Shown piece after piece: positions 854 through 6,266 of a stretch of 64,000 nt of DNA. Position 1 is the first letter of the stretch, and every line of letters begins with the position of its first letter. The notes below the pieces were generated by a model. It was not told where the DNA came from. It made no database searches and saw only the letters and a list, made by a program, of their open reading frames with translations. The DNA lies in contig CALSQR010000001.1 of the NCBI GenBank assembly GCA_943788505.1, forward strand, positions 1,054,001 to 1,118,000, written 5' to 3'. Source of the stretch: an uncultured bacterium. Its GTDB lineage: Bacteria; Bacteroidota; Rhodothermia; Rhodothermales; UBA10348. The position numbers were made by a program, and so were the translations under genes.

Positions 854-1906
854 TTATTTCAGAGGCTTCCAGTCCGGAGCGGGCGGGGTTGCGCCAGATT
901 GCCCGGCATTCGGCGATAGCCCTTTGGCTTCGTCGATGAAAAGCTGAAGATGCGGAAATGGGATTTCGATTTTCGCCGCCTTCAGTGCTTTGAAAATCTT
1001 CTCTGTGTACTCTGCTTTAATCGGCACTTCGATGGCCGAATTCCGAACATGGAATCGAAGCACCATATCGACGCTTGAGCTTCCCAACTCTACTACCACT
1101 ACTTCGACGGGGAAATCCGCAGCAATACGAGAGTCTGCATTGAGCAATTCGAGGACCACACTCCGTGCCGCATCAGTAGATTCCTTGTAGGCGATACTGA
1201 ACGGGACCTCGATTCGAAGCAGGCCCATGAGCGTATGATTGACCAGTTTCTGGTTGATCATCAAGACATTGGGCATCACCATGACTTCGTTGTTCAGCGT
1301 CCTGAGACGAGTGGAGCGAAGCGTGATATCCTGCACCGTCCCGTACGTGTCCTGAACAACGACCTGGTCTCCAACTCGAAAAGGGCGATCAATCATGATC
1401 GTGACGCCAGAAATGAAGTTTTCCAAACTGTCTTTGGCAGCGAAACCGAGAGCCAAACCGACGATGGAAAGTCCTGCCAAAAGAGCGCTGACGTCAATGC
1501 CGAACTGCGCCAGAACCATCACCGAAATGAATGCCCAGGCGACGATCGAGGCTGATTTGAGCAGCAAACTTTCCAGACCTGCATCGACATGCCTACTCGC
1601 CTTTAACACTCGGGCAAGGAGTGCGCGGACCACCCGATATACTCCATAGAGAAGAACGAATACCAAGAATGCAGTGATGAATTCCGGGAGTACGTTGTCC
1701 ACGAAATTTATAAAGATCACCTTCATCTGCTGCGAGAAAGAGTAGATGTCTCCTGAAGCAAGCAGATCCACCGCTCTACCCATTTCTTCTCCAGCACCGG
1801 CAACGGTGCCCGTACTATCACTGGCCACTGCAACCGTGTCTTGCACAGACTGCAATGAATCCTGAAAGTCGGCTTTCCCAGATAAGTTTGTCAGCAGAGC
1901 AAGCAT
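854..1906 (-). CDS. MscS-family mechanosensitive ion channel
   Basis: Small-conductance mechanosensitive channel protein that releases osmolytes when membrane tension rises. The 350-residue product has hydrophobic segments at about residues 70-95, 118-138 and 141-165. The last carries the Gly/Ala-rich pore helix pattern (AGLSIVGLALGFAAKD) followed by the family signature MIDRPFRVGD and the beta domain (TYGTVQDITLRSTRLRT). About 60 N-terminal residues precede the first helix. It is transcribed away from a second MscS gene that starts 186 bp away, so the two share a divergent promoter region. The pair is clearly paralogous but only distantly similar outside the pore and beta domain. Confidence 0.9.
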   Translation of the reverse strand: MLALLTNLSGKADFQDSLQSVQDTVAVASDSTGTVAGAGEEMGRAVDLLASGDIYSFSQQMKVIFINFVDNVLPEFITAFLVFVLLYGVYRVVRALLARVLKASRHVDAGLESLLLKSASIVAWAFISVMVLAQFGIDVSALLAGLSIVGLALGFAAKDSLENFISGVTIMIDRPFRVGDQVVVQDTYGTVQDITLRSTRLRTLNNEVMVMPNVLMINQKLVNHTLMGLLRIEVPFSIAYKESTDAARSVVLELLNADSRIAADFPVEVVVVELGSSSVDMVLRFHVRNSAIEVPIKAEYTEKIFKALKAAKIEIPFPHLQLFIDEAKGLSPNAGQSGATPPAPDWKPLK

Positions 1907-2092
1907 GAAAGATCTGAGTGAATAGAGGCATCAAGGCCCTGTCCAATAATTACTGGAGCAGAGATGAAATCGTCGCAAGCGCTCATTATACTATCATTAA
2001 CGATCATTTTCAGCAAAATGGCGATTCATATGCTAGGATGCAGTATCATCGCCCGCATCTGATCGAAATCACACACGTTCCTCGTGGCATTT

Positions 2093-3139
2093 ATGACGCA
2101 TCGATTCGCGAGACTCCTCCTTTTGTTGCTGCTATTAGCGGCCGTACCGGGATGTGGGACTGATCCGTCCGGGTCAACTTCTGAGCTGGACGTGGTGGCG
2201 GATTCTATCGCCGCGACGCAAGAGCCTGTTTCCGTTGATTCCTCATCAACAGGCAGGCGTGTGGGTGACATGACCTTGAATCAAGCTGGAGAGGCGGTGC
2301 AAGATTACGGGATGAGAGTTTTCTGGGCCGTTATCCTCTTCATTCTGACCTACCTGTTTAACAAGGGGATGGTGTGGCTACTCGAGCGGCTCTCTGAACG
2401 CAGCGCCGAACGTAGACTTTTCTACAAACGCCTGGTCCCGTTGGCACGGGTAATCATCTGGAGCATTGCCCTCTACTTTGTAATAAGAGTAGTATTTAAA
2501 ATCGATGCCCAGAATCTGCTTGCAGCCACCGCAGCCCTCGGCGTTGCAGTCGGTTTTGCTGCTCAAGATCTACTGAAAAATATTTTCGGAGGTCTCGTAA
2601 TTATTTCTGACCGCCCTTTCCAGGTTGGGGACAAAATTTCAGTGGCAGGCACCTACGGGGAAGTATCCTCCATAGGATTACGATCAACGCGCATCATCAC
2701 TCCGGATGACAATCTAGTCACGGTGCCCAATGCTCAGGTTGTAGACTCCCAAGTAGCCAACGCCAACGCGGGAGCCCTCGATTGTCAAGTTGTAACAGAT
2801 TTGTACCTGCCAGGCTGGATCGATGAACGCAAAGCCAAAGCACTTGCCTACGAAGCCGCGGCTTCTTCCAAATTCGTGTATCGCAATAAGCCCATCGTAG
2901 TCATCGTAAAGGATGAGTTTAAAGAGACTTTTCTGACGCATCTGAAGGTCAAGGCTTATGTATTTGACACACGATATGAATTCCTGTTGATGAGTGACAT
3001 CACGGAGCGGTGTCGAGAAGCATTTCGGGAAGCAGGCCTTCTTTCCAGAGAGGATGGAATGGCTGTCCTGAATCGCGGTGGTGCGCCAACGGCGTCCCGT
3101 TCAGAATCAATGTTGACAAGAGGAGCACCCGATGCTTGA
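2093..3139 (+). CDS. MscS-family channel with lipoprotein-like N-terminus
   Basis: Second MscS-type channel. Pore and beta-domain motifs are plain: AALGVAVGFAAQDLLKN, IISDRPFQVGD, TYGEVSSIGLRSTRI. The ATG at 2093 is preferred over the GTG at 2084 because it gives a compact export signal (MTHRFA, a run of eight Leu, then AAVPGC), an apparent lipobox ahead of the channel helices. Lipidated MscS proteins are unusual, so the Cys may simply end a cleaved signal peptide. The last 8 bp overlap the start of the large ATPase gene in another frame, so the two are probably translationally coupled and functionally linked. Confidence 0.88.
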   Translation: MTHRFARLLLLLLLLAAVPGCGTDPSGSTSELDVVADSIAATQEPVSVDSSSTGRRVGDMTLNQAGEAVQDYGMRVFWAVILFILTYLFNKGMVWLLERLSERSAERRLFYKRLVPLARVIIWSIALYFVIRVVFKIDAQNLLAATAALGVAVGFAAQDLLKNIFGGLVIISDRPFQVGDKISVAGTYGEVSSIGLRSTRIITPDDNLVTVPNAQVVDSQVANANAGALDCQVVTDLYLPGWIDERKAKALAYEAAASSKFVYRNKPIVVIVKDEFKETFLTHLKVKAYVFDTRYEFLLMSDITERCREAFREAGLLSREDGMAVLNRGGAPTASRSESMLTRGAPDA

Positions 3140-6100
3140 ATTGCAACAACACATTGATATGTTTCATCAGGCTGTCTCAGAAAGTGGCAGCCGATTTGCA
3201 AACGACCTCCGAACGCATCTTGCTGACCCGCTCCTGGATGCAGTTGATGACATCCTGAAGTCCGTACAGGTTCTTGAAGCAATCGACCTCAATGCACCCG
3301 AGGGTGTCAGTCGGGATGCCATTCTGGCCGTGACACGAGCACTTCAGACGGAGTTTCTCCCTGCCTATGGCAAGCTCTTGTCTTCAAGTAAGGGATTAAC
3401 CTTGTTGGCAGATGGATTTAAGACGTGGTCCACAGATGTAGAGTCCGCTTCCGATGCTCTGCCCGAAGTACTTACGCGGCCCGAGCCCGAGGCTCTGTAT
3501 GCTGCGTCAGCGAAGGATTCTGTCGTTCAGAGATCACGAAAATCGATGGTCCGAATGCAGCGCAAGCTGATGGAAAAGGACGCATCTCATGGTCAGAACA
3601 TACCGTTGCACGACATTGGCAAGGCCTATTCTCGTGTATGGTTACCCATCCAGTTCGGCAAAGTAATCGATGACGACAGACGCCGAATGGCGCAAGCCCT
3701 GTCATCCATCGAGCAACATACCTCGATCGTCTTTCATCTAGCCTTGCAGTGTGACTACCGATTAGCCTTGAGAGACCTTTCGGACGGTAATTCTACTGAA
3801 GAAAAACCACTTGGCCCGATTCTAGAGGCGTTTTCTGCTGCTTTGCAGAGTCTGAAACAGGTATTGACTGAATCCCCTCCTCGCCTGCGTCCGGTTTCAA
3901 TGGAGTCTGTCCGGGAGCGGTTGGAGAGAGCCTGGATTCCATTGGAAACGCAGATTGAGCAGTCTGATTCTTTTCTTTCTGCCATCCCATCTGCTTCATC
4001 TGAAGATTTGGCAATCAGAATAACTCGATTAGCTGGCAATGCTGATGCTTGGGAAGAATGGCTGCAAAGGTTGAAGGTGCGTCATGCCTATTTGTCGGAG
4101 CTGCTCACGTTTCGATTTGGTATCGATGAACTTGCCGAAGTACAGTCTCGGGCGCTGAGCCACAGGATTGGTGATTACATTTCTGAAGCTGTGCGCACCA
4201 CGTCTACTCGCCTAGAAGATGTATCAAGCCGAACGCAGGCCCTGTTTTCAGGTCCGGATTCGTCTCTCTTCGACAAGACAGAGAGTGGATTAAACGAACT
4301 GTCCGATGCTGGAACTCACGCGATTCAAACGAACTTCGTCGCTCCCATACAGGAACTAGCGCCGGTATCGTGCCTGAGCGAAGAAGCCGTACGGTTTCTG
4401 GAAGGCCTAGCTGCCCTCAGAGAAGAATTGCATCCAGACTTCCGGATGCATCCTATGCAGGATGAGGCTACGGATCGCATACATCCAGAAGCCGACGCGC
4501 GCGTTTTAAACCTCAGAGAATTAGCCCAGAAGGCTGCTGAGGAATTGAACGAAGATCGATTAGAAGCTCTTACGAAGTCGTGCAGAAACGGCCTAAGGGA
4601 TTTGGTCGAAGATGCCGGAGAACTCCCTTCCATCCTTTCCTTTTCTTTTCAATCCGTTGTGGAAGGGCAAGGTAGTAGGGACTCAGAAAAGGATGATGGC
4701 AAGGATTCCGGAGCTGAAATTGCCTTGGGTGGCATCTCGCGAACAATCGCGGCCATGAAATCCATTGAGAGTAAAGCAGGGGAAGAAATCGACGCAGCCT
4801 CCAAAGCTATGCACATAGAGGCTATTAGGGCATGGGGACGGCTTCATGAACGTGTCCGTGTAGAGCATCAGGTAGGGGGCTATGTCCTGGACGTAAAGTC
4901 CAAACTAGATTCCGAAGCTCGCCAGATAGGGCGTCAAGTTGCCCGGCAGCTTCGAGAAGCCAAAGTGTTGGCTGAGCGGTTCCTACGCCGAGGACAACGT
5001 CAAGCCAAAGACTTGATCGAAAAAGGGAAGGAAGCGGTTGGGTCGCCGTCTGTGACTCGAGCCTCATTCCATGAAACAGCTGTCGGATTGGCTGAGCTAG
5101 AAGCTGTTCTCAATAGCGTCCCTCCCGTTTATCGCAAGCTTTTCTCCTTCCAACCACTGAGCGATCCAGAACTATTGATCGGAAGATCAGACGGTATCAC
5201 GTTTGTCAAAAATCAGTTGGAGCAGTTCGAGATGGGAACGCCGCAGGCCACCATATTGGTTGGTGGGCCGAGTTCGGGACGAACCAGCTTGCTAAATGTG
5301 GTTCGAACTACCTTGCTTGTAGATCGTGATGTGAGATCTCTTCAACTTAATGAGAAGGTTGAATCATCTAGCGAAATCTTGAAGCTTTTCCGCTCAAAAC
5401 TGGGCTTATCATTACCTGATAATTGCGCCCTAGACGAGGCGGCAGATTTGATTCTGGACATGCAGTATGGTGAAGCTCAACCACCAATTTGCATCGTTGA
5501 ACATCTTGAGGCGCTCATGCTCCGTGGTATCGGGGGGTACCGTCTTTTGTCCGATGTCTTAAAGTTCATGTCGCGCACTGACACTCGGATTATCTGGATA
5601 AGTACGGTCTCATCGTTCGGATGGCAGTTGATGTCCACGTCTGATCCGGTGGCTGCCGCATTAGTCAACCGCTTTACCATGAATGAACTAGGGCGAGCTG
5701 ACCTAGAACGACTCATCATGGAGCGGCACAAAAAGAGTGGCGTGCCAATTGAATTTGTGCAGCCCGATGATTTGAATCCGCTTCTTCGCCGCCGTTTACG
5801 AAGAGTGCGCAGCAAGGAAATGAAACAAGAACTGCTCAAAGAGGCTTTTTTCGATCGCTTGTATTCGCAGTTCGGCCAAAACATCCAAATGGCGCTACTT
5901 CAATGGGTACGCTCTGTAGAGATGGAAGGTGATTCCGAGCGCATGCAGGTTCGAATGACGCAGCCGTTAAACCTGACGTTTTTCTCAGGCTTCCAGTTAG
6001 ATCAGGTTTTTGCCATGAAGGCACTACTCGAACATGGTCACCTTTCTATCGCAGAGTATGCTGCCATCGATCGGATCACGTATTCGCAGGCAATGTCTAT

Positions 6101-6266
6101 CTTTGAAACGTTGGGCAATGCGTTGGTCATCGAAGCAGTAGAGAGTGATAACCGATCCACGCTATTCCGCCATGTCGCGGTTCGCTCAGGCATTTCCTAC
6201 CGCATTCGGCCCCTTTTCACGCACGCTGCCATCCGACTGCTGAAGGAACGAAACGTTGTTCACTGA
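3132..6266 (+). CDS. Large helical protein with C-terminal P-loop ATPase domain (function unknown)
   Basis: The family is not recognised. The 1044-residue product has no signal peptide or membrane helix. Residues 1 to about 690 are rich in Glu, Arg, Ala and Leu and look almost wholly helical, with a strongly amphipathic stretch near 560-640. A P-loop NTPase domain follows: Walker A at 711-718 reads GGPSSGRT with Arg717 where Lys is expected, a Walker B-like strand ICIVEHLE lies at 786-793, and a sensor-1-like strand WISTVSS comes after it. The final ~120 residues resemble a winged helix. This layout recalls AAA/STAND ATPases. Its start lies inside the upstream MscS gene (8-bp overlap), which suggests a cytoplasmic ATPase partner of the channel. 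Function is inference. Confidence 0.7.
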   Translation: MLELQQHIDMFHQAVSESGSRFANDLRTHLADPLLDAVDDILKSVQVLEAIDLNAPEGVSRDAILAVTRALQTEFLPAYGKLLSSSKGLTLLADGFKTWSTDVESASDALPEVLTRPEPEALYAASAKDSVVQRSRKSMVRMQRKLMEKDASHGQNIPLHDIGKAYSRVWLPIQFGKVIDDDRRRMAQALSSIEQHTSIVFHLALQCDYRLALRDLSDGNSTEEKPLGPILEAFSAALQSLKQVLTESPPRLRPVSMESVRERLERAWIPLETQIEQSDSFLSAIPSASSEDLAIRITRLAGNADAWEEWLQRLKVRHAYLSELLTFRFGIDELAEVQSRALSHRIGDYISEAVRTTSTRLEDVSSRTQALFSGPDSSLFDKTESGLNELSDAGTHAIQTNFVAPIQELAPVSCLSEEAVRFLEGLAALREELHPDFRMHPMQDEATDRIHPEADARVLNLRELAQKAAEELNEDRLEALTKSCRNGLRDLVEDAGELPSILSFSFQSVVEGQGSRDSEKDDGKDSGAEIALGGISRTIAAMKSIESKAGEEIDAASKAMHIEAIRAWGRLHERVRVEHQVGGYVLDVKSKLDSEARQIGRQVARQLREAKVLAERFLRRGQRQAKDLIEKGKEAVGSPSVTRASFHETAVGLAELEAVLNSVPPVYRKLFSFQPLSDPELLIGRSDGITFVKNQLEQFEMGTPQATILVGGPSSGRTSLLNVVRTTLLVDRDVRSLQLNEKVESSSEILKLFRSKLGLSLPDNCALDEAADLILDMQYGEAQPPICIVEHLEALMLRGIGGYRLLSDVLKFMSRTDTRIIWISTVSSFGWQLMSTSDPVAAALVNRFTMNELGRADLERLIMERHKKSGVPIEFVQPDDLNPLLRRRLRRVRSKEMKQELLKEAFFDRLYSQFGQNIQMALLQWVRSVEMEGDSERMQVRMTQPLNLTFFSGFQLDQVFAMKALLEHGHLSIAEYAAIDRITYSQAMSIFETLGNALVIEAVESDNRSTLFRHVAVRSGISYRIRPLFTHAAIRLLKERNVVH

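Follow-up and report, generated by a model that had tools for sequence, protein, structure and literature searches.

Channels of the MscS family are the textbook example of a passive tension valve, and a gene for such a channel that overlaps the gene of a large soluble P-loop protein raises the question of what this protein would do for the channel. This arrangement occurs in the window analysed here, a stretch of 64,000 nucleotides (contig CALSQR010000001.1, positions 1,054,001 to 1,118,000) from an uncultured bacterium of the order Rhodothermales (Bacteroidota). An initial annotation of the window had described the second of two mscS genes, mscS2, as overlapping an open reading frame (ORF) of 1044 residues by 8 bp, which is confirmed by the ORF coordinates and the sequence.

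2093-3139, plus strand: mscS2, start ATG at 2093 (alternative GTG at 2084), stop TGA at 3137-3139, 348 residues.
3132-6266, plus strand: ORF of the predicted AAA+ partner protein, start ATG at 3132, 1044 residues, soluble.
3121-3139, plus strand: coupling junction read from the sequence, with AGGAG at 3121-3125, the ATPase ATG at 3132-3134 and the mscS2 TGA at 3137-3139.

The overlap (3132-3139) reads ATGCTTGA, and the AGGAG lies 6 nt upstream of the ATPase ATG.

Using the window protein as the query, homologues of the ATPase were found in 72 of the 394 genomes of the phylum, where they keep their reading frame and domain structure far beyond chance. The surroundings of about 80 loci were searched with profiles of both MscS and the ATPase. 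In 74 of 79 Bacteroidota loci (73 of 78 distinct loci, as L007 and L064 are one genome) the ATPase gene has an mscS gene as its immediate neighbour in the same orientation; in the five loci that have no mscS neighbour (L062, L131, L011, L014 and L019) the ATPase ORF is cut at the contig end. The two genes mostly overlap by 1-11 bp or are separated by a gap of less than 15 bp, most spacings falling between -11 and +13 bp. In Rhodothermales the channel gene comes first, as in the window, and elsewhere the ATPase gene does. Since the order differs between lineages while the genes stay together, their association has outlived rearrangement. Among 114 genomes of the order, an mscS2-type channel (above 300 bits) is present in 40, the ATPase (above 150 bits) in 40 and both in 38. 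In the four odd genomes (G407, G451, G449 and G417) the contig ends before the position that the missing partner would occupy, and the only MscS proteins of genomes without the ATPase are distant ones (at most 135 bits). An obligate partnership of the two genes is strongly supported. The initial annotation had proposed this partnership from the overlap; it is borne out by universal adjacency in both gene orders, by co-occurrence, by a dedicated subfamily of channels and by the pairs found in Alphaproteobacteria and Archaea, and no homologue standing away from mscS was encountered when the gene neighbours in other genomes were listed.

Two genomes, G434 (L129, 7941-10021) and G426 (L130, 9031-11191), carry a short and very divergent ATPase-like ORF (profile E of about 1e-8) with a divergent mscS after it, in the order of the window; this may be another subtype or a pair in decay. 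Profile matches to ClpC (L133) and to P-loop fragments in G396 and G270 were taken as false positives.

Outside Bacteroidota the search covered plasmid records, using tblastn with homologue L105. On plasmid pLA3 of Novosphingobium pentaromativorans US6-1 the gene of an AAA family ATPase is followed by a mechanosensitive channel gene after a 2 bp gap, and in the haloarchaeon Salinirubellus sp. SYNS196 the gene of a 331-residue hypothetical protein shares 4 bp with that of a mechanosensitive channel. The latter pair, of 331 and 269 residues, is the smallest form, and the P-loop of its partner, GDPFSGRES, also contains Arg. From the Novosphingobium protein we reached a Caulobacter plasmid (L138, 4713-9135) with the order ATPase, mscS, mscS. 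The second of these consecutive mscS genes is of the ordinary type. The alphaproteobacterial partner proteins have transmembrane (TM) segments, and hhalign detected no homology between their helical region and that of the Bacteroidota proteins.

The channel half of the pair is distinctive as well. MscS2 has a signal-peptide/lipobox-like N-terminus followed by an MscS core of three TM segments; it matches PF00924 (E = 1.1e-20), with the beta domain at residues 159-225, and has no match to PF21082, the model of the canonical MscS C-terminal domain. Its place in the MscS family rests on the beta domain and, as PF21082 is absent, we assign it to a divergent subfamily. In a Pfam scan PF00924 was found in all 48 paired MscS proteins and PF21082 in just two of them, and PF21082 matched eight of ten unpaired MscS proteins. 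A maximum-likelihood tree separates 32 paired MscS, including those from Alphaproteobacteria and Archaea, from 14 unpaired ones, including E. coli MscS, mscS1 of the window and the other mscS of its genome, by a single branch (support 100/99) that recurs in 100% of the bootstrap trees; the tree is midpoint-rooted and has long branches and few unpaired rows. Judged by the scan and the tree, the paired MscS are a dedicated subfamily separate from ordinary MscS. The two groups differ most visibly at the cytosolic end of the channel, which makes this end a plausible place for the partner to dock.

The lipobox-like sequence at the N-terminus of MscS2 (window 2093-2170) reads LAAVPGC and precedes a long Thr/Ser/Asp-rich linker; many paired relatives have a Cys at a similar position. 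N-terminal lipidation would be unusual for a channel.

What, then, is the partner? Compared with Pfam and NCBIfam, the window protein matches no family above cut-off, the nearest being AAA_16, which falls below threshold, at residues 682-731, and a sequence search of the PDB gave chance matches only. A profile of the partner picked up weak ORC/Cdc6 and ABC-F P-loop matches in the PDB. The homologues mostly give sub-threshold nSTAND3/AAA_16 matches, and AAA_16 rises above cut-off in the Caulobacter relative alone. An AlphaFold2 model built with 64 homologues (mean predicted local distance difference test, pLDDT, of 90) was more informative. Foldseek matched it to 7jgr_A with E = 6e-7, and VIA-align superimposed 243 residues on Cdc6 (7jgr_G) with a Z-score of 15.8 and a root-mean-square deviation of 3.5. 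The best ORC/Cdc6/TnsC matches have Z-scores of 14-16, and their chains cover residues 661-1021, that is the AAA+ core, the lid and the winged helix. The predicted layout is as follows.

3132-5051, plus strand: helical region, residues 1-640; modelled alone it has a pLDDT of 92.8 and a predicted template modelling score (pTM) of 0.85.
5112-5966, plus strand: predicted AAA+ domain of the ORC/Cdc6/TnsC type, residues 661-945, from the fold search of the model.
5262-5288, plus strand: Walker A position, residues 711-719, GGPSSGRTS, with Arg717 replacing Lys, from the alignment.
5487-5510, plus strand: Walker B position, residues 786-793, ICIVEHLE, with the acid kept and His replacing the catalytic Glu, from the alignment.
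5724-5741, plus strand: RHxxSG motif, residues 865-870, nearly invariant in the family, from the alignment.
5967-6263, plus strand: predicted C-terminal winged helix, residues 946-1044, with a conserved terminal RN[IV]xH, from the model and the fold alignment.

According to the model the partner consists of a conserved helical region of about 640 residues followed by an AAA+ module of the ORC/Cdc6 type that includes a winged helix. That no named family fits, as first stated, holds at the Pfam and NCBIfam cut-offs and not for the fold, which the profile and structure checks assign to AAA+. The winged-helix-like end is upheld by model and fold alignment, and the helical region is present at about 640 residues in the model rather than the 690 or so first given. 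Its helices span residues 2-636, with one of about 110 residues at 522-636. Searched alone against the PDB with Foldseek, it has no match below 0.001 (the best is BDLP at 0.02), and VIA-align relates it to helical bundles, to vinculin/alpha-catenin and to dynamin-like stalks with Z-scores that reach 13. This likeness may be just a common arrangement of helices, and the region is therefore given no family. Hydropathy analysis finds no TM segment in the window protein. The recognition helix of the winged helix lacks basic character: its median net charge over 80 sequences is 0.

Arg717 had been singled out in the P-loop, quoted as GGPSSGRT, and it is indeed there. It is, however, no hallmark of the family: among 79 scorable sequences the Walker A Lys position holds Lys in 48, Arg in 19 and Ala, Met, Leu, Val, Ile, Thr, Asn, Gly or Gln in the other 12. 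In the Walker B motif of the homologues Glu/Asp is kept, and the catalytic Glu is changed to Asn, His, Gly or Ser in most. Other positions are invariant or nearly so, namely Pro664, Tyr667, Gly716, Gly802, Trp822, Trp831 and the RHxxSG motif. A tree of the module puts the order of the window (21 rows) entirely without Lys; a second clade has Ile, Thr, Ala or Asn, and in a third family Arg appears at two placements, which gives at least three losses of Lys overall. As aligned, Arg717 is real but lineage-specific, and one part of a repeated loss of catalytic residues. Because the Walker A Lys is not conserved, the 'attached ATPase' first proposed probably binds nucleotide with little or no hydrolysis in many members.

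The module occurs in four architectures, and the fusions among them provide the strongest hint of its function, since everything that is joined to it transports ions or solutes. Variant (a), of about 1000-1100 residues, is that of the window. Variant (b) is short, about 380-433 residues without a helical region (L074, L076, L098, L106 and L112), and the archaeal form has 331 residues. Variant (c), of about 1500 residues, starts with an Na+/H+ exchanger domain, which PF00999 matched in four of the six members tested (E = 1e-19 to 3e-22), continues with a middle region homologous to the helical region of the window protein (hhalign 99%) and ends with the AAA+ module. Its operon contains a multi-TM protein of about 420 residues, without a Pfam match, in all seven loci, together with mscS, and trkH and trkA in six of them (L075, L079, L080, L082, L089 and L117; L087 is without trk). 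Variant (d), of about 1700 residues, has an N-terminal SLC12/amino-acid-permease-like transporter followed by a helical region (hhalign 97.6% to that of the window protein) and the AAA+ module. It is found at L125 (7802-13644, genome G236), L127 (9342-15139, G219) and L128 (179-6147, G406), each with a small MscS of about 245 residues downstream; a 1703-residue relative matches PF00324 (E = 5e-48) and PF03522 (E = 7e-7) and is followed by a 244-residue MscS. Variants (a) and (d) are both present in G219 and G406. We know of no SLC12-type transporter fused to such a module. A TrkH-like gene at L060 (1739-3163), about 3.5 kb from the mscS there, was not used as evidence.

We propose, with an even chance of being right, that mscS2 and the ATPase gene encode one functional unit in which the AAA+ partner docks on the channel and sets its activity through its nucleotide state in the service of turgor and ion homeostasis. 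The cytosolic ORC/Cdc6-fold protein would sit on the cage, the cytosolic side of its dedicated MscS, and its ATP or ADP state would set the activity of the channel. Control by nucleotide state would apply to some lineages. In the lineage of the window neither the Walker A Lys nor the catalytic acid of Walker B is left, so its protein probably binds nucleotide weakly or is a degenerate, non-hydrolysing scaffold, whose long helical region could serve as a lever or tether. The fused forms would link cation transporters with the MscS channel: as the same module is joined to an Na+/H+ exchanger or SLC12-like transporter in relatives, it probably ties cation transport to the release of solutes through MscS. 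The partner is most likely a nucleotide-sensing, weakly or non-hydrolysing regulator of channel and transporters, by analogy with TrkA/KtrA. In that system ADP-bound TrkA closes TrkH and ATP-bound TrkA opens it (PMC6987127).

Several points weigh against this proposal. The loss of Lys in the whole order of the window and in a second clade speaks against an obligate ATP cycle, and nucleotide sensing may have been lost there. The short members and the archaeal form have no helical region, so the lever idea is not general. AAA+ proteins of the ORC/Cdc6-like clade mostly act on DNA. Finally, what we observe are the genes and a predicted fold; physical contact, nucleotide sensing, the direction of control and gating are what we infer.

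A bolder version, which we hold only tentatively, would make the pair a widespread osmotic-control machine of Bacteria and Archaea, with the AAA+ protein, possibly as a ring, under the dedicated MscS turning energy state or mechanical strain into opening, and with the fusions adding Na+/H+ exchangers and SLC12-like transporters to one volume-regulating complex. The related TnsC assembles into heptamers, as does MscS. If this version is true, MscS channels are not all passive valves.

Among the alternatives the one that survives best, though we consider it unlikely, is an assembly or quality-control factor, an AAA+ protein that folds, inserts, clusters or remodels MscS and the transporters in the manner of chaperone-like or MoxR-type AAA+ proteins and has no part in gating. 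Strict one-to-one pairing, translational coupling and a large helical scaffold would suit such a factor, as would the motif degeneration that some lineages tolerate. An active remodeller would nevertheless require intact Walker A and B motifs, and its covalent fusion to transporters is more in keeping with a stoichiometric partner than with a catalytic one.

Somewhat less probable still is a channel-coupled transcription regulator that reads whether MscS is open or closed and signals to DNA through its winged helix, like regulators of the ORC or STAND type. The ORC/Cdc6/TnsC fold with its winged helix is what such a regulator might have, but the neutral recognition helix, the position of the module inside a membrane-transporter polypeptide in two subtypes and the TM segments of the alphaproteobacterial versions all argue against it.

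The initial annotation had also raised a defence or stress switch of the STAND kind, and this we do not support; that the nucleoside triphosphatase (NTPase) detects phage and makes MscS open as the effector pore appears improbable. An NTPase with a pore does resemble pore-effector defence systems, and eight of 37 C-terminal modules weakly match PADLOC mad8 (best E = 8e-7), but the window protein itself matches none of the PADLOC families. The loci lie among housekeeping genes at one conserved chromosomal place, near genes for an amidase, uridine kinase, RecQ and pantothenate kinase that recur, depending on the gene, in 24 to 34 related genomes, reaching 34 genomes of a neighbouring family. Neither phage records nor single-protein scans of viral contigs yielded relatives at the sensitivity used, and plasmid records hold no close relatives of the window protein. 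The fusions to ion transporters point away from defence as well.

Mere vertical inheritance of an operon without functional partnership, a very remote prospect to which synteny within families might point, is already contradicted by the data: the two genes swap places from lineage to lineage, their flanking genes vary from family to family, and the pair is still found where identity has fallen below 25% and in Alphaproteobacteria and Halobacteria.

Upstream of mscS2, the window contains a second channel gene.

854-1906, minus strand: mscS1, an ordinary MscS channel, divergent from mscS2 and outside the paired group in the tree.

As a neighbour mscS1 is kept across the genus but merely in part of the family. 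The divergent arrangement (window 854-2092), which the genus shares with some further genomes of the family, suggests that the two channels share a control region. In one relative (L064, 6922-8040, genome G450) the mscS1 orthologue is broken into ORFs of 203 and 167 residues by a frameshift or as a pseudogene.

The domains of the pair all fall into known superfamilies; to judge by the open literature, the obligate MscS/AAA+ pair, the dedicated channel subfamily and the exchanger and SLC12-like fusions are undescribed. We found no description of any of them there (subscription journals and preprints were outside the scope), and a paper on NTP-dependent conflict systems (eLife 2020, e52696; PMC7159879) makes no mention of MscS or ion channels. 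Compared with STAND NTPases (nSTAND3, AAA_16), the likeness consists of weak, mostly sub-threshold P-loop matches; none of the usual STAND effector or sensor repeats were found here, and the context is ion transport. The CPA-type Na+/H+ exchangers and SLC12-like transporters correspond to the N-terminal domains of two subtypes. To our knowledge, the known members have no AAA+ module and no MscS pairing. E. coli MscS and MscK share the MscS beta domain and pore helix with the paired MscS, which differ in forming a separate group, mostly without PF21082 and always with an AAA+ gene. An obligate AAA+ partner would place part of the MscS family under the control of a protein, and perhaps of a nucleotide. 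The ORC/Cdc6/TnsC ATPases have an AAA+ domain with lid and winged helix as well; unlike them, the window protein has neither Lys in Walker A nor Glu in Walker B, its recognition helix is neutral, a large helical region forms its N-terminal part, and its gene partner is a channel. On the predicted fold, the ORC/Cdc6 type of AAA+ would have a role beyond DNA transactions, in a setting where catalytic residues have been lost repeatedly. The last comparison is with TrkA/KtrA, the RCK proteins of TrkH/KtrB, which are likewise separate cytosolic nucleotide-binding proteins with a gene beside, and dedicated to, an ion channel; the subtype of about 1500 residues even shares its operon with trkH and trkA. 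The fold there is an RCK Rossmann fold and here AAA+, the channel here is MscS, and Pfam detects no TrkA_N Rossmann domain in the window protein. As a two-gene system, the pair would allow one to test how turgor release and ion uptake are coordinated in microbes, and if the partner does gate the channel, the principle would resemble that of RCK-regulated K+ channels, realized with an unrelated fold on an unrelated channel.

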